Part shown: positions 5,691 through 44,100 of the stretch, in pieces | Layout: every line of letters begins with the position of its first letter | Position numbering within the stretch: position 1 is the stretch's first letter | NCBI RefSeq assembly: GCF_037975245.1 | Contig: NC_092573.1 | Span: forward strand, 20,615,265-20,679,264 | Direction: 5' to 3' | Length of the DNA: 64,000 nt | Source: Apostichopus japonicus | Taxonomy: Eukaryota; Echinodermata; Holothuroidea; Aspidochirotida; Stichopodidae | Notes under the pieces: generated by a model | What the model was told of the DNA's origin: nothing | The model's input: the letters and a program-made list of their open reading frames with translations, nothing else | The model's database searches: none | Made by a program: the position numbers and the translations under genes

Positions 5691-7844
5691 CTATACCCTG
5701 ATAAGATATGGTATCGTCTCAGACTGAAAAGTGATGTCCTCCCACTGGCCGCCGGTGTACAGGACTCCGGTGCCCGGTTGCTGCCACTTGCCGGAGGGTA
5801 AGTAAACCTGTCTGGACATGTGCCCCGGGGCAACTTTGGGTGCCACCAGGATGTCGTCTCCGACTAAAAACTGGGAATTGATGGATGCCGTGTCTGCGTT
5901 GTGTTCCAACCACCACAGTGGTCTGATGATCGGTAATCCCGTACGGAGATAACGTACCCCTAGGTCCGAGACCATGGGTATGATAACATTCTGGTGAAAG
6001 TCTATGTACTCGTGGATGAGATCTTTCACTTCTGGACCGTACTCTAAAGCCGTCGTCGGTATCTGCATGACCGGGAGGCAGGCGCTCAACTGGATGTAGC
6101 TCAGGAGCATTTCTTTATCGACTTGCTCGCTCGAGAATTCCTTCAAGTCCAGGGCCATGAACGGGTACCCTATTAAACCTAGATTGATGATGGACGGTAT
6201 CACGCTGGCGAAACCGTTCTCCGTGTCCCACGAAATCTCCTTCGGGTAAGTTCTGATTACGATCGGGATGTGCTGACTCTCGTACGCCGATCTGGTGACC
6301 ACCGTCTCCGTGACGGAGTTCGCTATCTCTATGTAGCTATGGGTGAACTGTGACGGATCGTCCAGCTCTGTGTTGATCTGGTACCCGTAGGGCAGGTAGC
6401 TGGCTTCCCCGTAGTCGAACGTCAGCGATTCGAGTCCCTGAGAATCCTTGAAAGCTCTCAGGCTGTTTCTATAAGAAAGTACTGCTGTGTTGTCAGTGAA
6501 ATCAATCACGCCCCCTATTTTGTCAGCCCACATGGTTAAGCCTGGGACTTCTCCCCTTGGGTCCATCACCAGGTCACCCCGGAGGGCACCGCTCGTGAAT
6601 GCCACAGAGTCCACGCTGACGAACGGCGTCACCGACGCCATCACTCTCAGGCCGATCCGATGGACGAATGGAACGAACGAGTCGTTGAGAGGGGTACCTT
6701 TGAAAGTGAGGTCACCCTCGTTGACCGCAAAGCCGGACCTTATGTCGATGTACCCCACTGGATGCAGATCGTACAATTCTTGTACGACGTGGAACGGTCG
6801 AGTATCGTTGTTCACGTAGAGTGACCAGAGCGGTTCTTCGAGCAACAGTGTGTTTGGAATGATGGGTGGTATAGGAAATGCCTTGGTAGAGTTGAATAGT
6901 TTTAGTAGGTCATTGTTGGCGCAGACGGCATACTCCAAATGAGAATCGGAAGAATTATGATCGTGGTGGATGGACTCCCAGTGCATCGACTCCAGACACA
7001 ACCGTTGCTCGTCGTTATCCATGCTGACCAACAAGGGAGACCTGTCGGCCACTTTGATCGACACGTTCCTCGTCGACAGCCAATAGCGTTCCACCACCGA
7101 ACCGAACTGGCCTCGTCTGTCGCTGGTGACGAAGGCTGTCATGGGAATGTTCATCGATTCTATGGGTACGTTTTGATCCTTCGTAACCCCACCGCCGTAC
7201 CAGTGGGAATTCGTCATGGAGAAACAGTCCTTGATGGATCTTTCGGGAGCGAAGGTCTCCCAGCTGACCTTGTAACAGTCGATCCCTACGTGGCTTAGAT
7301 TTGTGTCGTATTTTATCCTGAGTTTGCCGTAGTCCTTCCAGCTCAGACACAACCTCTCGCTGTCTCCGAGCATCGAGCAGGCGGCCGGCGCCTCCATGGG
7401 CGCGAACAGACCGATCTGCCCTCGTAGCCGCTCTCTCCCTTCGAAATCGATGACCATCTCTTTCTTGTCGACGTAATACGTCAGAGATCCCAACACGTAG
7501 TGGAACGGTTCCTCCTTGTAGTAGACCAGGATGAGAATCGTTCCGACCAGGATCAAGACGAACAGACACATGACGGTAAATTTCAGCTTGATCTCTCGTG
7601 GCGTTTTCAGCAGCCTGATGGGAGCGGTGAGGTCCACTTTAGCCGTCGGGAGCCCCTGATTCGGCTGGGTGCCATTGATGGAATGGGAGGGTGGTTCCTC
7701 TGCCGTGGGTACCTCCTCGTCGATGATGGCGGCCTCCACCGTGAATCTACTGCCGGGCTGGGACGACATGCTGTGGTGTCCTGTGACCAATGGTGTAGAA
7801 ACATCGGATGAATCCGGTGACGTTAAAGTGAGCAGTTCACTCAT
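5691..7844 (-). CDS. MYORG: MYORG-like glycoside hydrolase family 31, type II membrane protein
   Basis: A 717-residue uninterrupted frame, close to the length of vertebrate MYORG (myogenesis-regulating glycosidase). The protein has a cytosolic, Ser/Thr/Pro-rich tail (1-88), one membrane segment (about 89-108, VMCLFVLILVGTILILVYY) and a lumenal part with GH31 features. HWYGGG lies at 214-219. The expected nucleophile is Asp477 in TFDYGEASYLP, and the expected acid/base is Asp540 in SWDTENGFAS. A C-terminal beta region holds FLVGDDILVAPK (659-670). Several N-glycosylation sequons lie in the lumenal part. Vertebrate MYORG is an ER-resident alpha-galactosidase-type enzyme; the substrate here is inferred from family. 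The start was chosen as the first ATG (CAAGCATGAG on the minus strand), which leaves an N-terminus typical of the family. No intron interrupts the coding region. A 5' UTR exon upstream is possible but not shown. Other open frames over this interval are shadows. Confidence 0.93.
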   Translation of the reverse strand: MSELLTLTSPDSSDVSTPLVTGHHSMSSQPGSRFTVEAAIIDEEVPTAEEPPSHSINGTQPNQGLPTAKVDLTAPIRLLKTPREIKLKFTVMCLFVLILVGTILILVYYKEEPFHYVLGSLTYYVDKKEMVIDFEGRERLRGQIGLFAPMEAPAACSMLGDSERLCLSWKDYGKLRIKYDTNLSHVGIDCYKVSWETFAPERSIKDCFSMTNSHWYGGGVTKDQNVPIESMNIPMTAFVTSDRRGQFGSVVERYWLSTRNVSIKVADRSPLLVSMDNDEQRLCLESMHWESIHHDHNSSDSHLEYAVCANNDLLKLFNSTKAFPIPPIIPNTLLLEEPLWSLYVNNDTRPFHVVQELYDLHPVGYIDIRSGFAVNEGDLTFKGTPLNDSFVPFVHRIGLRVMASVTPFVSVDSVAFTSGALRGDLVMDPRGEVPGLTMWADKIGGVIDFTDNTAVLSYRNSLRAFKDSQGLESLTFDYGEASYLPYGYQINTELDDPSQFTHSYIEIANSVTETVVTRSAYESQHIPIVIRTYPKEISWDTENGFASVIPSIINLGLIGYPFMALDLKEFSSEQVDKEMLLSYIQLSACLPVMQIPTTALEYGPEVKDLIHEYIDFHQNVIIPMVSDLGVRYLRTGLPIIRPLWWLEHNADTASINSQFLVGDDILVAPKVAPGHMSRQVYLPSGKWQQPGTGVLYTGGQWEDITFQSETIPYLIRV

Positions 7845-10800
7845 GCTTGCTGCTAATGGTGTGTGAGCTTGCAGAGTGTACTATTAGGTGATGCCATACG
7901 TGCCAGCATGAAGGAAAATGTTAAGCAGTGCTTTAATTCTGAAGTAGAAAGATGAAGAGGAGAGAGTGGTAGGCAGGTAGGTGAATTAAAAAATGACGTG
8001 GGAGGGGGGCGGAAATTTTGTTTCAAAAATGTTAGCTTCAAGAAATCGGTAAGTAGCAAATATTAAACGATACCACACTCACTGTTTCGAATTTCTGTCT
8101 CTCAACCGGCTTTCGGCTTGCTTTGCTTTTAAATGTTAACAGCAGAAAGTACTAATTGCATTAGTTGTGCATTTCAAAATAAATCTTCGTAATGTGCGTA
8201 TCATTCTCAAAGTAGTTTTTCCACAATTTCTCAAAGCACATGTCAAGCATGAACAGTTTATTAATTTTCAATATTAATAATTATTAATAATTTAAATAAT
8301 TACTCCCAGGAAGGTACCAAGTAAAATATAAAATAAAATAAACTCCTTGTTGCCAGAGTCTCAGTAAACAGCAACAATGAACCAGGGCAGTAGTAGTGAG
8401 CCCTGATGTCAAATTCACAACCCACAGAGAAAGGCCTGAGAGGAGGGGATGTCACTCCCCACCCCCTCCCCCTTTTCCAAGCGGGCAATAAGAGGATATT
8501 TACATTGGGAATAACTACACCACTGCTATGGGTAATCATATCCTTTTCAAACCACTTTTAGTTGTGAAATAGTGCATTCTGCAAAATATTTAGGCTTTAA
8601 ATTTATACCTGTAGGTATACAGTATATAATTAGGTCAAGGTAATACAAATAACAACTTTCAACTTTTGTGTGTTTGGTTGCAGAACAAAAACTGTATCTG
8701 TGTCAGATATCTGGTTATTAAAACACATTGTAGCAAACTCAAGAACAAAGTATGCTGCAGTTTCTTGCTTTAAGTTTTGGAGTTGATTTGTTCGTACTGT
8801 CAATATTAGGTAGTGATGAGAGTTATTGTCAACACCAGTTCTTCTCGGGGAGATGAAGCACAAGTTTCAACATACAGCCTGGTTTCATACAGTACTTTAT
8901 ACTGATCCTACTGAAAACATAACACTAAGTAATATCATTTGGAGCAAATCGATAATCTTGTGTAGTCCAAGTGGAATGTGGGTAATTTTAGAGAAGACCA
9001 CAACCAGGTACTGCTGCAACATTCCATTACAAACACATAACCTTTATACTGATGGTGTCCCTGGGACTAAAGTATGTCCTAGCAAAAAATCACAAAAGTC
9101 GTGAGAAGATACTTTTTTTTTGTCAAACCGTGTCTTGTTTCGTTCACTTACAGAGGCAACTGTTCTTGTTCAAAACATTAATTCGAGGTATGCTTTCAGA
9201 GCAAAATGTCTTGACATTATTACCAAATCATGCAAAACAATGTACCCAGTGAACAATGTTCACTTGGATTCGGTAAAGTCGTGGATTCAACTGCCAGCTA
9301 AGCTAAGCTGTCTCAAGGGCAATTGTAAAATGTCTTTGGAACGGCTCGCAATGCTATGGAAACTATATTAGAGAGACAGTCAGAGATAGACCTGAAATGG
9401 CGAAAGTTTGTGACAACCATTGCATAAATAGTACTACTGTAGACATGTGTATGGTTATTGTGTGAAATGTGTTATCTCAGCATCGTATATAGGATTATTA
9501 CTGTATGAACCGTACAGTTATGAAATGAAACTATGTGAAAACCTGCTTCTCGGGTGTGCATTTGAGTAAATGTATTGAAAAAGGAAAATGAACAAGGAAA
9601 ATTGGTTAACATTTGGACATTTTTAATTCACTTAATCTCTAAGAATGGGCCAAGATTTTGGCAGAAACGTACATCATGATTTTGGCGATTATTTGCTCAC
9701 ATTTATTACCACAAAATAGATGGAAAAGATGGTATGAACAATGCAACTGGAAACAATTTTGGCGTTGGGTGGGCGACGTTCCGCAAACCAAGTGTGTATT
9801 AATAAAACTAATATTTCTATTGATCGAACACTGACGCCCGCCTGGAATTATTTTTTTTACTGATTCAATTCTCCACATTTTGTCCACCATGCAGGCAATT
9901 TATCAAATTAGTATATTCATTAAATATAAAAGAAGCAAACTAGAAAATTTCAAATCTTTTGCGTTTTACATCTTTCTTTGATTTGCGACTACACTACATA
10001 CTTGATATGCATTTGTGGCTCATTAGTTTGCGGTATTATCGTTATTGATATTTTCTCTTTATAACTATTAAACATCATTAATTACATAACAGTATTACTA
10101 CTCCTCCACGAGGATCTGAAACCCTTCGACCCTCTGTATTTTTAATATAACATTTTCAATTTCAAAATGTTAACAGTGTTGACACAGAAAACCAATACAG
10201 TCATTAGTTCATGTTCAATATGTTAGAATCAGCCTTTTTCTCGAAACATCAAAATTGAAGGAAATGTGGCTGAATGATATCATACTTTGACTTGATCAAG
10301 TCTCCAGCCTTGTGTATATATGAAGGAACATTAAATCTGTGATGTATCTCTAAAGTGGAATAATGTTTTTCTTTAGCTGTTTGAGGATGTTATACATGAC
10401 ATTTAAAGCAGCATTTTGCGTTTGGTCGCCGTTTTCCACGTTTTTGACAAGTCCATCAAGTTTTTTACATATATCAATCACAAAACAACAAACTAAGATA
10501 ATAGCCAAGTTTTTTCCCTGCCAAAAGCGTTAATTGGCGAGTAATTAAGGACATTTGCAGATAATGAGAAAAGTGTCCTCCAACAAATTACACATTTAAT
10601 ATTAATCGCATACAGTTCCCCAACCCACTAGTTTGAATTCAACCAATCAGAGATGCATGTTTACTTACAGAATGAGCCGTTGCTAAAACTAGATTCAAAA
10701 CGTCAAGTTGGTAACTTGGTACAACCAGCGAGCTGGACTCTAACAGCTCCCTGGTACAACTGCCGTAGACAATCTACACAAATTAATCATGGTGTTGTAT

Positions 10801-27770: not shown

Positions 27771-27925
27771 TGTTGGGAAACCGAAATCAGCTGTGTCGTG
27801 CGGTGAACGACAAGTTATTGAAATCAATTTCAGATTGCATTAGAGTTTGTGTAAATAATTTAAGTTAAATTTTAATTTGTTATCAGTACTGTTGTTCTTT
27901 CAGCAACCTTCACATCTTTCCTACA
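27771..27925 (+). repeat. Unit 1 of a ~192-bp tandem repeat, split by an insertion
   Basis: It matches 30547-30705, with shared words such as CGACAAGTTATTGAAATCA, TTTCAGATTGCATTA and CACATCTTT. The unit ends at TTTCCTACA, exactly where the 2.58-kb element begins. The continuation of the repeat resumes after that element at 30510. Confidence 0.85.
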
Positions 27926-30509
27926 GGGCCATTCCACACCAAGTGGTCCCACCATGGCAAAATTAGAAAGGGTTATTAGATGTCTCTCTTTGTGTATAAT
28001 TGAAAGTAAGAAGGTTAGACTTTCTTAAACTGTTAAAGTTTTCTTCTGATAACTCAATCTTGTGTTATAGCAAAGAGTATACATCTCAAATTGTAGGCAC
28101 CTTTACTGTGATTTATCAAACAATAATTTGAAGTAGAAAAAATCCTTAAAGGAAAGATAAGTACAAGCTTTCTTTTCATGTGGCAGTTAAATGCAGTCTG
28201 CTAATCTATTTAATAACACAATTTAACAAATTTTCTTTGTTACTGTTAACACAGATTATGTCAAAAATGCCACACTCTGGCTGTGACTTACGTGACAAGA
28301 ATAAAACCAAATGTTTTCCTCAAATGATATGTAGTGTGCTAGAGCAAAGTGAGTTACAATTGAAAAGGTAGCTATAAAGGTTGATCTGTAATACCACCAC
28401 TTTTGATCAATTTAACAAACTTTAACAAATTTATGGACTCCAGAAAAGTGTGACTTACGTGACGTCACATAAGTCACAAAGGGAAGTGTAACTTACGTGA
28501 CAAGTTAATTCTCAACACTTTCACATAGTTTTGATGTCTTTTTTATACTATAACAGGTTTATAACACCTTCCTCTTTATCAAAGATACCTACTCAGTTCT
28601 AAAATGCAGTAACAATATTTATCATGTGAAGTAAACTTGGAAGGTAACATAAAAGTGAATTGCAAAAAATGGCTCAAACAGCTCAAACTTAGAACAATAT
28701 TACCTGTTATCTTAAAATCTCATTACGTGTTTGCCAAATTTAAACTTTGACTTTTCCAGCTTACTGCACTGAAAGCTCAGTGAAATGACACCCTTCAATG
28801 CAATTTTCATAACAATATTCATTATTTTTATTGAGTTATATGTCGTTAAACAACATATTTATTAACGAATCGGTAGTTTCTAAAAATGTCAATCAAAATT
28901 TGCAAGCCCCACCTGACAGATCATGCACCAATCAAATCTCTCTGTTTTGTTTACAACCGTTAGTCCTAGCTATAGACTACTTTCACTTTCCTGGGTATAG
29001 CCTGTGGTAGGTACATTCTCTTGAATAGTATCTTTCTTTTGGTCTTACAGATATAGATTTCAAATTTGTGTCATTTCCTTCCATTGCAATGAATAAACAG
29101 GTATTTTCAAACATTTTTTCTGTGGAATTGGGTCAAAAAAGTGGAAGATACAAGTATATATGTAGGTTACATTAAGTTTAATGAACATGTTGATATGGGC
29201 GGTCGCAATCATTTTACAGTAAAACTTTTGCACCATTAGGGCAACAGAAAACAAGTTTCCTTTTGTCGCAATTCCATTAAACCCACCTGGTCAGAGTGCA
29301 TTTAGAATAAGAAACATTGAATCTGCTTCTGAAAGAGGCCATTACCATGTTGTGTTGGTTGCAGGCACCATTACACTGACCTCTGTGTCTTTGCCTTTTA
29401 TATTTGTAACCTCTCCTGTGTGAAGTATATCATCATATTTAACAACAACAACCCAGTCATCTACCTTAGTATGACAGGTCACAGCTGGAAGTACAACATA
29501 ACTAACTGAAATTAGTAGATCTCATTAAGTATCTAATGCAGTTTTCCACATACACATCTTGCCACCTTCTGCCTTTACCACATGGATTTTATATGGATTA
29601 ATTATATAATCCAAATTTACCAAAAGGGTTCTGTATTAAGTATTCTTTAAAAAAAACTAGATGACTCCTAATTAAGAAACTATTTAGCTAGCACTTAAGT
29701 TAAGATATTTTGCAGAACTAGTCTATAGGACTTTATATGTACAAGTGAACTTCTTGATTTGAACTTACTCTGTAATTTAAATCACTTAAAGCAAAATGAC
29801 AACATTATTAAAAGCACCCATGAATGTCAGAGTTCCTTGCACAATGTGACTGCACATTTTATTTTTAAACTTACATTTTATTTGCACCACCAATTAAAAT
29901 TCTTCCAGCAACTACTGTGTGATATGAGCTAGTGTACAATGAACTGACATGTGCTCTTTCTTGCCACTATTTTATGTGGAATAGACCCCTCCCCTTTCCC
30001 CTATCTCAATATAATGAACTTTAAACATGTCCTTAGCCTGTGTTACCTTGTATCTTTGGAAACTGTGAGAGGAAAATGAGCAGTTTCACACGCGTGACTT
30101 ACGTGACAATTTCTTGTGACTTACGTGACGTCGCTAATTTGCATACGAATATCGGTATAAAACATGTATCAATTAAATTTTACCTTGAAGTTATTCCTCA
30201 ATGTGTCCTTTTCAGATAAAATAGGCAACTTATCAGATTTTCCTCAATACTTCACAGAATTTATTGATTTTCTCCAAAGAGTTGAAATTCTTCATTTCTC
30301 TGCGTGACTTACGTGACAAATGTTGAGGGCGCTATAATTCGCAATAAGACAGCATTAGTGTTTCGCAGTGGTAACAGAATTTATTGTGGGTTAACAAAGT
30401 TTAGGAACTATAGGCTTTTGACTTAACTACAAACTTGCACTGAACTAGAGATCGAAAACAAGTGTAAAATTTCGCTCTGATTTGTGACTTACGTGACGTG
30501 GAATGGCCC
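27926..30509. mobile_element. 2.58-kb nonautonomous DNA element with TIRs, 4-bp TSD and eight internal GTGACTTACGTGAC motifs
   Basis: The ends are a perfect 12-bp inverted repeat: GGGCCATTCCAC (27926-27937) and GTGGAATGGCCC (30498-30509). Both sides carry TACA (27922-27925 and 30510-30513). The host tandem repeat supplies an empty site, TTTCCTACAGTTTAC at about 30697-30711, with a single TACA; this supports a 4-bp target duplication. Copies of GTGACTTACGTGAC or a one-base variant lie at 28283, 28450, 28464 (inverted), 28488, 30094, 30116, 30304 and 30484, clustered toward the two ends. The last abuts the right TIR. The 28450-28477 pair forms a near-perfect palindrome. No open frame looks like a transposase. 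A 5'-GGG end with a 4-bp duplication would be compatible with a Sola-like superfamily, but that is not proven. Confidence 0.82.
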
Positions 30510-30760
30510 TACAGTTTACATTGATCATTTTTATTTTGCCACATTTTGTTGGGACAACCAAAATCAGCTGTGTTTTCCAGTCGACGACAAGTTATTGAAA
30601 TCATTTTCAGATTGCATTATAGCTTGTGCAAAATAATTCAAGTTAAATTTTAAGTTGTTATCAATGTTGATGTTCTTTTCACCAACCTACACATCTTTTC
30701 CTACAGTTTACATTGGTCATTTTCATTTTGCCACATTTTGTTGCCGGGGCAACCAAATTT
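30510..30760 (+). repeat. Units 2 and 3 (partial) of the ~192-bp tandem repeat
   Basis: TTTACATT at 30515 recurs at 30707, giving a 192-bp period. Unit 2 runs to about 30706. A partial third unit continues to about 30756, sharing GCCACATTTTGTTG. Unit 1 is at 27771-27925. Confidence 0.85.
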
Positions 30761-32840
30761 ACTGTGCAGACAACCAAATGTAAGGCATGGTTGTCTGAGG
30801 GACAGCCAGAAATAATCCTCAAAAATTTTGCCATGAAAACTGTAAACACTGTTAACTCATTAAAACATTTAAAATTTGCACTTCAAAAATGTACATCTAC
30901 TAAGCTCTACACTGTGACTATCTGTACAGACTTATAAGTGAATAAACCTTACATTCATAGTAAATTCTCACTTACTGTGCATGATTTAACAGATCGTGCT
31001 GTTGTCTAAATTAAGTTACATTCCACTGCCAGGCAATTTGAGTGTATCCCAAGTCTTGAGTTACTTTTATGAATGTAACTGCAGATTGTTCGAATCAATA
31101 TTTTTAACTAAAATTCTCAGCAAAATTGGTCGCTATTTCTGTTTACTTTCTACAACTGTATAGTAAAGCACTTGTAACTTTTAAAGTGTGCTGTACGTCT
31201 AGACTCAAATCTGAATTTAATTATAATAGCAATTCATACAACATTGACGACTTGACATGCACTGTACATACAGAGTAGTCAATAGCACACACAGCACTAT
31301 ACACTTTTTACTCTGTACATTGTTTACAAAGCAAACAGACCTTTACTGTACTTACAGCTTATACGTACACGTACAGTTTACATATTACGTCACCGCGACA
31401 GGAGAGTTGTCAAAACTAAAATATTGTTATGTAAATTGCCAATTGGGAAAATTTTCCACTTTTTACTTCATTATTTGAAATTAAAACCTTGGCAATTTTA
31501 ATCAAACTTTGGACCTACTGTTAATTTTTATCAGAACTGAGTATTTTACTTAAAAATCAACATCCACTAAAGTTGCTAGTTTTAAGGATTTTAGTAAAAA
31601 ACAATTGATGCTTCGAGATCTACTGTGGTGGATCATTATTACTGTATAAAGGTAGGTCTACCGTACAACTTCACTATGCACTAAAAACCAAGTGTATCCA
31701 TGGAGACAAAACTTACTACTACTGTACAATCACACTGTGGTTCACTTTATAATCGATTTAAATCACGAGCAGGAAAGCTGTTCACTGACGGCGTACCATC
31801 CTTACAACCGTTTGACGTTCCCACAAGTATTTCATCACACAATCAAATATTGTAGTTCCTTTGGCAGTTCTATTTCAGAGAATGCGTAGAATCATCACTC
31901 GTGACATCACTAATCCATGAATGCCAATTACGGAGATGTCGTCACACTCTACAAAATATTTCAATGACACTGGTCTCATTTTCAGTGCTACAGTTTAATA
32001 GTATTCCCATGACATTTTGCCATTAAAGAGCACATGTTACAAAATTTCTATTTGTTTTCAGGAATTTTTCAAATTAACTTCAGAGTTTCAGTTTAACAAG
32101 TCATACAGAGTTTAGAATGAAGGAAGCTAACCTTTCAAGTACATGAACTCATTCCTTGCAATGAAACTAATCAACTAAATTGAATAAAACTGCTTCTAAA
32201 GATGGCTTTCTTGTGCCTTCATAGAAGGATACATGTTTTTTCAGTGTTGTAGGACTTTGTACTATATATAGTTACAGTATGTATCAATGGTATATATTTC
32301 TTGATAGTTCTATCATACATTTTGTGTAACTTCTTAGAATTGCAAGTAGCCTGCAGTCTCTTTGTGACAAGTAAACTGGATGTAATGTGATACCATAAAG
32401 AAATGATATGAAAGTAAAATATTAACAATAAACAAAATCATGTTAAAGTTCATATTACAGCTTTAATTTCACAAACCTTTAATTATGATCATACATACAC
32501 AAACACATTGGCAATCTTGAATATTCCTTATCAATACCCAATGCCATCCATTGGTAAAAAACCTGCCAACTTTGCTGGGTTTTTTTTGCTCTTAAAATTT
32601 GATCTACTGTAGTGGCACAATACTGTACACACAGCACTGCACAGTACATCTTCAACAAATTTGGTATACACTGTCAGGGAACACTTTAAAATTTATTTTG
32701 TTGTTTAAACAATCTCAACATTGTTATGCTCATTCTATTTGTTTTGTCTTGTTTTCTGAGCAGATAACCATGGCACTATCTAATCCAGTTCACCTTTGAC
32801 TACTTCTTTATTATGTAAAATTATACATTGAAATGCTGTT
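30761..32840. other. Intergenic, nothing recognised
   Basis: AT-rich sequence; open frames are short and lack recognisable domains. Confidence 0.5.
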
Positions 32841-39682: not shown

Positions 39683-40697
39683 TAATAATAAGCAAATATT
39701 TATAGAGCGCTTTATGCAAAGGCCTCAAAGCGCTTAAACAAGTACACAAAAATGCAAGTCAAATCACTGTAAATTTTTGGAATAAATGAGTTTTTAAGAG
39801 ACGCTTAAAACAGTCAACCGATGGTGCATTGCGAATTGAAGATGGTAGATTGTTCCAGAGATGAGGTGCAACAGAGATGAAGGCTCTTTCTCCATAAAAC
39901 TTTGTGTTTGGGGTATGGCTGGTGGCAAGAAGACACTTTGTAGACGAGCGAAGTTGGCGTTGAGGATGATACTGAGGAATTAAATTTGTAATGTAACCAG
40001 GGGCAAGGGAGTGTTGTGATTTGTACGTTAAGAGGAGGAGCTTATAAATTGACCGTTGTTTTACTGGAAGCCAATGGAGTGATTGAAGCACTGGAGATAT
40101 GTGATCATGACGCGATGAACATGATATTAACCGGGCAGCAGAATTCTGAACAGTTTGAAGTTTTTTCAGTGTAGAGTCAGGAAGGCCAAATAAAAGGGAG
40201 TTACAGTAGTCAAGCCTGGGCATTATCAAGGAACATACAAGTTTTGTAGTTATATCGTTGGTTAAAAACTTCCGTATCCGGCTGATCTTCCGTACGGCGT
40301 TGTATGATGATTTACAAACAGCACTGACCTGTTGTTTCATGCTTAGATGGGGATCCAGTACAACTCCTAGACTTTTGACGTGCGTGGACGGAGTGATGGT
40401 GGTCTGATCAATTTTGACTGAAATAGATTTGATTGTTGTGGATTTAAATTGCGAGGTAGCATGGAGGATTTCAGTCTTTGAGTCATTGATAAAAAGATTG
40501 TTTGATATAGCCCATGATTTTACATCTGCAATACAGTTTTGGATTTTTTGAATAGCATCGGAACAATGATCAGGATGGAAAGATGTGAATAACTGAATGT
40601 CATCAGCATAAATAACAGTTTGCATATTAGCTGAAATGATTAAATCATGCAATGGAGCTACATACAAGGTGTAAAGTAACGGCCCCAGAACTGAGCC
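39683..40697 (-). mobile_element. 5'-truncated LINE (L2/CR1-type) with 3' tail
   Basis: An insertion of about 1.0 kb flanked by TTATATAA on both sides (39675-39682 and 40698-40705). On the minus strand it starts inside the reverse transcriptase, at the GSVLGPLL motif, and runs through the catalytic YADDIQLF and the LHWLPVKQRSIYK motif typical of the C-terminal end of L2/CR1-clade ORF2. The 3' untranslated part is only about 75 bases. It contains a stem-loop with arms AGCGCTTT and AAAGCGCT (39706-39734), then an ATT repeat. Truncation at the 5' end is normal for LINE insertion. Confidence 0.9.
39759..40697 (-). pseudogene. Partial LINE reverse transcriptase reading frame
   Basis: The frame stays open for more than 300 codons, from the GSVLGP motif (near 40696) to a TGA after FQKFTVI (39759). 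It contains YADD (about residues 20-23 counted from the internal Met at 40667), PRLDYCNSLLFGLP and HLWNNLPSSIR. The endonuclease, the RT fingers and any ORF1 are missing, so it cannot move on its own. The intact frame suggests a fairly recent insertion. Confidence 0.88.
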
Positions 40698-41164: not shown

Positions 41165-44100
41165 CTAATAGTAAGATAAAGTCGGTAAGAAAAAACAAGG
41201 TGAAACTAATAGGATATGCATATATGGATTACTTTGAGGCAAATTCAATTTAGGGGCAGTTAAATTTTGTCATTGGTAATTTTGCCCTCTACATGTTGTA
41301 ACAATGCAATTTCAGCCTCAGAACATTTTCTTTCTTCATATATCTTATTTTTTCTCACGTATTAAAATGTTAGATATAATCACATAATGGAATATTGCAT
41401 ATCATTATGATAACCAAGACAACAAACTTTTGCGAATGTCTGACTTTCGTGAACAAGAAATAAAATGAGTTGAAAAGAATGCCTTGTGATGAGCAAACTT
41501 ACATTTTAGACAACTTTGATAAGAGTATAAATACCACAAATATGCAGGACGTGCAAGACTATACTTCTGGCTTTCTACATAGCAAAACTTAAGCACTTGT
41601 CGATGTCAGTCAGAGATAAGAGTTGGTCCCAAAATTAAACTTATACGACCTTTTATATCTCATGTAATGTGTTACTAATGTCTAACGCTTTTCAACGACG
41701 CCATGCGAACAGTATATGTGCGGCTTACAAGACTATAGTGTGTAGGCTAAATTCCTTCAGTGCAGTCGGCGGGGTTAAACGATTAAAGGCACGTAAAAAT
41801 ATTAATGATGTAATGAAGACGGATATATATTTCAGCAAGAAATTCACCGAAAATGGCAAATAATTGTCATTACGGTATTTACATATAAGCCTATACAGAC
41901 ACACGTCATATATGGGAGTGTAAATACAGGATACCAGTATACTTGTAACCATGTGTTTGCATTACATTAGTTTGGACCGCTGTGTGGAGATTATGACGCG
42001 GCTTACATATATATCATAATATGTTATGCATATAGAGTCGCCTCGCATAGGTATCGCAATGCACAATTAATTGCTCCCATTGACTTACACACTAAACTTG
42101 TCACTTGCCAAGGCCGATAGAACATAGATAGAAGTTTTCAACTGACATGTCCTACCTAAGATGTGATAGCTAAGGGCTTGGGCTATCATAAAACATTCAA
42201 CTTTCGCCACCATGACCGTTTAGATTTTGAGCTAGAAGAGCTCAAAGTTTATCATAGTGCTCCCCCATGCCAGCTGACTTTGCGGAATCTTCCCAAGATA
42301 TTCTAAAATACCAATAAATCACCTTCGATCCTCCAGATTTTTAGACCAACAGTGGTTTATTTCATCCTCTTCAACATCCAAGCATCAAAATCAATGGTGA
42401 TGACTCAGAAAATGCCAAACAAATCAATACATTAGGGCACTTTAGGGCTATTTTCCGACAATGGTGAACCTCTCAGGCGGACGTGCACTACTCTAATTGT
42501 GGTGCGATACCTATATGGACTATTGCGCGCAATTTAAGTTGACACACAAGGCGCTCCATACAGTGGCGTCGCCAGGGGGTGGCCTGGGGGGCATATGCCC
42601 TCCCAAGAAAATCATGACCCCACGTGCCCCCCCCCCCCCATTGCGATTTGTAGTGTTACTCAAACATGTTACTCAAACAAAACTTTATCTGCCTCAATTA
42701 AAAACATAAATATCGGACAGACGAAGCTCGAAATTTCTTGAACATAAAGTTACTTCAAGTTGCAAAGTATAGCACCAGATTGCATCTACGGACCCTTAAT
42801 TAATAAAAAATAAAATAAACCTCCCCTTAGACCCCGCCCCAGGACGGCATTCACAAACAAACATTGTGCCCCCCTCCCCTTATAAAGTGATGTGTCCCCC
42901 AGTGCCCCCCTCCTCTCCAAGGTTGAATGGTCTGGCGACGCCACTGACATCATATAAGGGACTTTAATTTTTACCTGAAACTACTGCCCCGAATAACGTC
43001 GATAAACTCCTTAGGCTGAGCATCCAAGACAGAGACATATTGAAGTGGCTATTGCAAACAGTATTGTCCAAATTTGACGTGATTAATGTTACTTGTAATC
43101 CCACACAAAATCCGCTTATTGAAGTGATAAAAGCGAACACAAGAAACGTTTGCGTTGTAAGGAGTATTGAGTAGGAACCTGCCACAAGGAGTGACGAAAT
43201 TACTAGAAGGTACTCTAGTATTCGACGGTTCAAATAAGTCACAGTTATGAAAGCGGCAACTTTGCCAATGATTCCAAAAATACCAGAAATTGTAGACAGC
43301 ATAACTGCAACGTGAGACGGAACGCCACTAGCCTCACAATACGGAATTAGATACATCGACCAGGCGACATAATGTAGTTCCTCTAACGTGCCCACTAACA
43401 GGAGGAAAACAAACGCTGGGTGGGCCTTGAATACATCAAAGATCCCATGATGGCGAGCCCTTGTTGATTGGGTCTCGCGGACTTGTGACGTTGTACTCTC
43501 GTCACTATATTGTTGGTCTCTGCAGGTGAACGCAGATCCGACAAGGAAGCCAATAGTGACGGTATTCCACAAAATGGCTCCAAATATAAAAACTGCTCCT
43601 TGTATGCCATAGTATCTTTTAAGTAGACTCATGACAACAGGCAAAATAGCCATCCCCAAAGGTGAGAGACAATTGATCACGGCGTACGCTTTTCCAAATC
43701 TATCTGCGAAGGAATTTTTTAGCGATACCATGCTGAATAACTTTAAGCAGCTATGTCCAATTCCTGCAACGATAATTGAAAAGAAACATATATGAGGTTG
43801 AGTAGAAACTATATACTGGTATAGCTCCTTTTTTCTTCTTCTTTTTTATTAATGTCAGATTATAAATAAATATAACATATTTGAGAAAGACATTTTATTT
43901 AAAAAACAAAAATCCAACATGGATTGACCTATCATACTTATAGCGTTTTTTTATAGCATTTATGATTGATATATACTATTTCAGGACAATCAGTTACTGC
44001 ATTTGCAGGGTTCGTTCCAAATATGTATTATTCTGAAATATTTCAGAGCTAACCGACCGTACTATTAAATATTGCAAGCCCACCAGCATTGAAAATGGCT

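Follow-up and report, generated by a model that had tools for sequence, protein, structure and literature searches.

A non-autonomous DNA transposon of Apostichopus japonicus with eight subterminal, probably transposase-binding sites in a layout that recurs in related families

In a 64,000-nt stretch of Apostichopus japonicus DNA (GCF_037975245.1, NC_092573.1:20,615,265-20,679,264, forward strand; hereafter the window), a 2584-bp element with short terminal inverted repeats (TIRs) carries eight 14-bp sites near its ends. Based on sequence comparison, we estimate at about 0.83 the probability that it is a cut-and-paste, internal-deletion derivative of the family of L028, an element elsewhere in the genome, and that the transposase of this family binds the eight sites in a constrained layout for pairing of the ends. 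The element bears the signature of mobility and has a partner element, its sites and their positions are conserved between copies, and a similar layout is found in other transposon families. The transposase as the bound protein, the action of the sites in end pairing and the cut-and-paste mode are what we infer.

The features of the element, in window positions, are as follows.

27922..27925, unstranded: left target duplication TACA (flank sequence, copy comparison)
27926..30509, unstranded: non-autonomous DNA transposon, family A, 2584 bp (TIRs, duplication, blastn to copies)
27926..27937, plus strand: left TIR GGGCCATTCCAC, perfect, 12 bp
28283..28296, plus strand: site 1, GTGACTTACGTGAC, exact
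28450..28463, plus strand: site 2, exact, adjoins site 3
28464..28477, minus strand: site 3, inverted, one mismatch
28488..28501, plus strand: site 4, GTAACTTACGTGAC, one mismatch, spelled alike in L028
29312..29593, minus strand: remnant of the transposase C-terminus, broken and containing stops, 73% match to L028 protein residues 553-644
30094..30107, plus strand: site 5, exact
30116..30129, plus strand: site 6, exact
30304..30317, plus strand: site 7, exact
30484..30497, plus strand: site 8, exact, adjoins the right TIR
30498..30509, minus strand: right TIR GGGCCATTCCAC, perfect, 12 bp
30510..30513, unstranded: right target duplication TACA (flank sequence, copy comparison)
30702..30705, unstranded: TACA of the empty site, neighbouring repeat unit (flank comparison)

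The first-pass annotation had correctly given the edges, the perfect 12-bp TIRs and the TACA flanks, and its empty site was recovered as well: when joined, the flanks of the element are 86% identical to the uninterrupted neighbouring unit at 30631-30766, with TACA at 30702-30705. Its eight copies of a 14-bp motif are borne out when one mismatch is allowed (six exact, two with one mismatch), as is their clustering: the outer 576 bp at the left hold four sites and the outer 416 bp at the right hold the other four, of which the last (30484-30497) touches the TIR. The 28-bp near-palindrome that it had noted lies at 28450-28477 and is a perfect palindrome in L014 and L028. The word TTACGTGAC occurs seven times exactly in the window, always within 27926-30509, where 0.34 occurrences are expected and the maximum among 100 shuffles was two. 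With its broken C-terminal transposase remnant (G000:C13:20644576-20644857 in genome coordinates), the element is evidently a deletion derivative. Elsewhere in the window, long minus-strand frames match glycosyl hydrolase family 31 (5691-7880), reverse transcriptase (39759-40697) and the major facilitator superfamily (42964-43845).

Other copies with the same ends exist in the genome. In 671.6 Mb, the 12-bp TIR word is present at 157 places (reversed control, 9), the 14-bp motif at 282 (control, 9) and a family A right-end word at 39 (control, 0). Among the TIR matches listed (100 of 157), 16 pairs 2.3-2.8 kb apart and 11 pairs 5.6-7.5 kb apart were fetched, and the right-end word gave 15 further short loci and L028. 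The window element is 84-92% identical to 16 other family A copies by blastn over the conserved terminal parts. The 39 right ends represent 22 independent loci, with two clustered groups each counted once, and a perfect 4-bp duplication flanks 20 of the 22, the exceptions being L025 and the insertion on G000:C17. Neither outcome that the first-pass annotation had named as refuting its reading, an absence of further copies or flanks lacking a 4-bp duplication, was observed. On that contig, 12 right ends between 6.02 and 9.49 Mb (L027, L029-L039), mostly in one orientation, have a common right flank, whose first 12 bases are identical in 11 of the 12, with one change in L038; the group reads as a single insertion copied with a dispersed segment across 3.5 Mb. 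On G000:C12 (28.953-28.985 Mb), seven right ends lie in the same orientation, 4.5-6.6 kb apart. This is probably a tandem array, judging from L024, the one copy whose sequence was fetched, and we infer a single insertion in counting it as one. Copies mostly agree in how many sites they have and where these lie: eight exact occurrences of TTACGTGAC are present in 12 of the 17 two-ended short copies (the 16 fetched pairs and the window element) and six or seven in the other five, and some of the later-fetched C17 copies have lost more sites or the left end.

The autonomous relative with the same ends that the first-pass annotation had proposed to look for is L028. A 493-aa piece of L007, a member of a second family (see below), gave 84 matches in the genome, one of which, on C11 (26% identity, E 3.8e-8), sits in a 674-aa open frame between occurrences of the motif. 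The enclosing element, L028, is 3820 bp long, is flanked by AAAT/AAAT, has near-identical ends with one mismatch in the left TIR, and carries all eight sites at the same offsets as the short copies. Its single uninterrupted frame, on the minus strand, encodes a DDE-like protein and is the only full-length family A frame among the 66 matches listed; many short family A copies keep a C-terminal transposase remnant with stops.

An alignment of nine transposases (L007 and L050 partial) contains 13 invariant positions, including D362, Q372, E374, D440, K447, HGK476-478 and DG482-483 (L028 numbering), of which D362, D440 and D482 form a putative catalytic triad. Pfam returned weak matches for the L007 pieces and L028, all below the cut-off, and for the nine proteins six families, each in a single member (best E 0.022). 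A PDB search with the L028 protein gave no match, and the hits of a PDB profile search (a ribosomal protein and huntingtin, E 0.036 and 0.067) are too weak to be believed. An AlphaFold model of the L061 protein alone (mean pLDDT 36) is too poor for use. Of relatives in the genome collection searched, one was found, L061; among viral contigs, 61 pattern matches included no relative. L045-L048, whose ends were not recognised, contain stop-free frames of 818-930 aa for related transposases, and downstream of the gene in L048 a ATTGGACGGACA-like motif is repeated. No convincing ends were found at the five transposase loci L044-L048; in L044 a B-like motif occurs twice. L051 is 59% identical to residues 1-293 of the L028 protein and has two A-like sites 22 bp apart, with no ends recognised.

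Several families of this protein lineage can be distinguished. Family B, the long group, comprises 11 copies with the TIR of family A and perfect duplications in 10 of 11; its members are 95.7-99.98% identical to L004 in aligned parts, and blastn of L004 gave no match in the short copies. A 1.56-kb middle part of L007, absent from the other B copies, has open pieces of 441 and 493 aa with one stop between them. L004 and L009, on different contigs, are 99.983% identical across 5935 bp, which suggests recent movement. The subterminal motif of family B, TTACGTACGTAAC followed by AAGGACAGA, is unlike that of A.

Family C is represented by L049, with ends GGGCAATTCCGTAAA and TTTACGGAACTGCCC, duplication ATTT, sites GTGACGGACGTAC and a 737-aa open frame whose identity to the L028 protein is 29% across 624 aligned positions. 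Its site word is present at 319 places in the genome (control, 25), and eight of nine shorter copies are two-ended, with perfect duplications and, at corresponding offsets, 6-9 exact sites; in the remaining one, L053, the left end is not recognisable. Family X (L061) has GGGCAATTCCAT at both ends and sites GTGTTGGACGTACA. Its 690-aa frame shares 51% identity with that of C and 30% with that of A, and the bases on its two flanks (AAAT vs TTCT) do not form a duplication. The L061 record, JAAEPJ010000558.1, is titled 'MAG: bacterium isolate Cli_8' and carries a transposon of this lineage; our guess is host DNA in a metagenome bin.

Family E was first represented by L050, a decayed element with no matching duplication and four of the eight sites (GTTACTCACGTTAC with at most one mismatch). 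One of these lies 370.5 bp from one end, and three lie 20.5, 381.5 and 396.5 bp from the other; where the remaining four sites would be expected, the best matches have 5-8 mismatches, similar to background. Four more loci (L063-L066) were fetched by transposase similarity alone, without the motif. L063, L064 and L066 each have ATAT/ATAT duplications and eight exact sites and, as copies of one family, are counted as one further family. The decayed L065 has two sites spaced by 20 bp, which are off the layout and closer to the end than those of L066 by about 100 bp; the other end of L065 was not found. The family E word is present at 237 places in the genome (control, 8). A further element, F (L062:151-4763), encodes a related transposase with one stop, and is flanked by ATCT; its inverted ends, as estimated from matching points, span roughly 600 bp or more. 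This is a different end architecture within the same protein lineage, and the element has none of the three site patterns tried.

Within family A, the sites vary less than their surroundings. In 16 copies (the window element and L012-L026), the 112 site columns hold five private variants and one shared variant, compared with 235 private and 134 shared variants in 1194 other columns, and L028 differs from the majority of these copies at none of the 112 site columns and at 109 of the 1194 others. Fisher values are about 1e-5 (private), 7e-5 (shared) and 5e-5 (L028), approximate because variants were counted as columns. In a 22-copy set that adds L028 and L039-L043, the last five chosen by a word containing the last site, random placements of 14 bases reached the conservation of the sites in 3 and 1 of 20,000 trials at the two ends. 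The corresponding figures for family C, 70 and 114 of 20,000, are biased since the copies were chosen by motif. Selection acting only at the moment of jumping would not make private variants rare unless lineages jumped often; the rarity of private variants too thus means either that copies kept jumping or that another factor also protects the sites.

The sites of families A, C, X and E lie at similar distances from the ends. The centres of the sites, given as distances in bp to the nearer end, are:

A (L028): 368.5, 535.5, 549.5, 573.5 / 19.5, 199.5, 387.5, 409.5
C (L049, turned round): 369.5, 525.5, 545.5, 558.5, 573.5 / 20.5, 189.5, 378.5, 399.5, 434.5
X: 370.5, 526.5, 547.5, 561.5 / 20.5, 189.5, 377.5, 398.5
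E (L063): 367.5, 532.5, 549.5, 569.5 / 20.5, 198.5, 386.5, 401.5

The common layout is about 20, 190-200, 378-388 and 399-410 bp from one end and 368-371, 526-536, 546-550 and 559-574 bp from the other, and, with the gene as reference, the two end patterns of A are exchanged with respect to those of C, X and E. When each family was compared with every other in both orders (12 comparisons), seven or eight of eight sites (8-9 of 10 from C) agreed within 11 bp; this tolerance and the number of mismatches allowed (2 in A and E, 3 in C and X) were chosen after the sites were seen. Uniform random placement reached the observed value in 0 of 20,000 trials and independently shifted site sets in 4-39 of 20,000, with the better of two orientations permitted for data and controls alike. 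At a 2-bp tolerance, X and C agree at seven of eight sites and A agrees with C or X at only three of eight. The layouts of A/E and C/X are about 8-11 bp apart in the long intervals, suggestively close to one helical turn, as expected with bound faces in phase; that these intervals, 156-189 bp, approximate nucleosome size is speculation. Family B, whose sites lie 194.5 and 549.5 bp in from one end and at least 434.5 bp in from the other, and F are off the layout, so the layout is not general among related transposases.

Shared spacing could instead reflect descent: the sites would be those of the transposase, with similar distances merely inherited from a common ancestor without constraint. The transposases are homologous, the elements look similar at their outermost ends, and an alignable stretch of 40 bp is left at the right ends of C and X. 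Yet those 40 bp are the only blastn similarity (plus strand, E <=0.01) between A, C, X and E in the terminal 640 bp, and C and X, whose proteins are 51% identical, agree within 1-3 bp at eight common sites; we consider unconstrained inheritance very unlikely. Whole elements show short between-family matches, for example 34 bp over a site pair in L014 and L049, as well as coding matches. Amplification of the motif as a short tandem or satellite-like repeat that came to lie inside the element by chance would fit the C12 and C17 copies, which were amplified with their surroundings, but the sites keep fixed, separated offsets, no common sequence extends beyond about 15 bp around them, and 20 of the 22 independent loci have duplications. 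The constancy of the offsets among separate insertions refutes this explanation, to which we assign hardly any probability.

The first-pass annotation had also likened the core to bZIP/E-box-type sites that the element could spread, and a host bZIP/CREB-type factor recognising the ACGT core could use the arrays as a promoter or enhancer for the transposase gene or its neighbours. The spellings of A, C and E contain ACGT, the abutting site pair includes TGACGTCA, which we take to be CRE-like, and few private variants in the sites are what in-place selection would give. Against a host factor, the arrays stand at both ends rather than just upstream of the gene, they persist in copies without an intact gene, and site spelling is uniform within each family and different between families of one genome. 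Family-specific spelling argues for a family-specific protein, the transposase, over a host-wide factor, making regulation by the latter very unlikely. Because spelling tracks the transposon family, the spreading of bZIP/E-box-type sites is not supported as the main function; the element's sites may have a side effect on host genes. The evidence favours fixed-layout binding by the transposase over host bZIP sites, and the proposal that the array binds the transposase appears well supported by the same array in L028, the retained number and positions of sites, their low variation and the layout in other families.

In fixed-layout binding by the transposase, the enzyme would cut at the short TIRs and would also bind eight 14-bp sites of GTnAC type, four at each end with spacing that differs between the ends, and the bound sites would allow assembly of a complex that recognises and pairs the ends. 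Constrained distances would keep the sites in place while the intervening DNA diverges, and a change of binding specificity in a lineage would be followed by change at all its sites. More tentatively, and with somewhat less than an even chance in our judgement, this would be a eukaryotic transposase lineage that assembles an asymmetric complex over eight sites at fixed distances (about 20/190-200/380/400 and 370/530/548/566 bp), with long intervals near whole helical turns and nucleosome length, and that has switched specificity several times, all sites being rewritten together, with the end patterns of A exchanged relative to the gene.

Inverted ends with a fixed-length duplication, together with a transposase-encoding relative, identify a DNA transposon with TIRs. 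hAT elements make 8-bp duplications; those here are 4 bp, and no Pfam hAT or BED match was obtained. Kolobok and piggyBac were rejected, with no TTAA among the duplications listed. MITEs are very short (below about 800 bp) and non-coding, and the window element is non-coding but, at 2584 bp, too long. The ends of Mu and Tn7 likewise have several transposase sites each, arranged differently at the two ends, an analogous arrangement in bacterial systems that use accessory proteins. The family's motif is not described within the literature searched: the 12-bp TIR gave no transposon work by title among its matches in literature text, GTGACTTACGTGAC and GTGACGGACGTAC gave no match, and the sole match of TTACGTGACGT was on kiwifruit.

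By published description, the families resemble Sola2 in TIR length and duplication: the passages on Sola2 in PMC3627910 give 12-13 bp TIRs, AT-rich 4-bp duplications (AWWT) and an 888-aa protein, and here TIRs are 10-15 bp (12 in family A) with 4-bp duplications, AWWT in eight of ten perfect B duplications and in all three two-ended E copies (ATAT). Differences from Sola2 as presented there (PMC3627910) are that AWWT is found in only two of 20 family A duplications (ATAT, AAAT), that intact frames are 674-930 aa compared with 888 aa, and that those passages describe no subterminal array. Passages of PMC3985635, PMC9587614 and PMC10294476 contain nothing that decides superfamily membership. 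For many sites per end, a working analogue is Hermes (hAT), whose transposase octamer, according to the summary in PMC10368747, contacts the left end asymmetrically through several DNA-binding domains. Buster1 (hAT), as outlined in PMC4298943, has short subterminal repeats common to long and short copies; those are tandem, have another motif and belong to another superfamily.

Changes in transposase specificity that require many sites to change together are hard to study. Here a single genome contains three site spellings on the same conserved layout, and two of the three come with an uninterrupted transposase frame (L028 and L049), so that binding, cross-mobilisation and spacing rules are directly testable. 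The layout itself may serve as a signature for related elements that have no DNA similarity.
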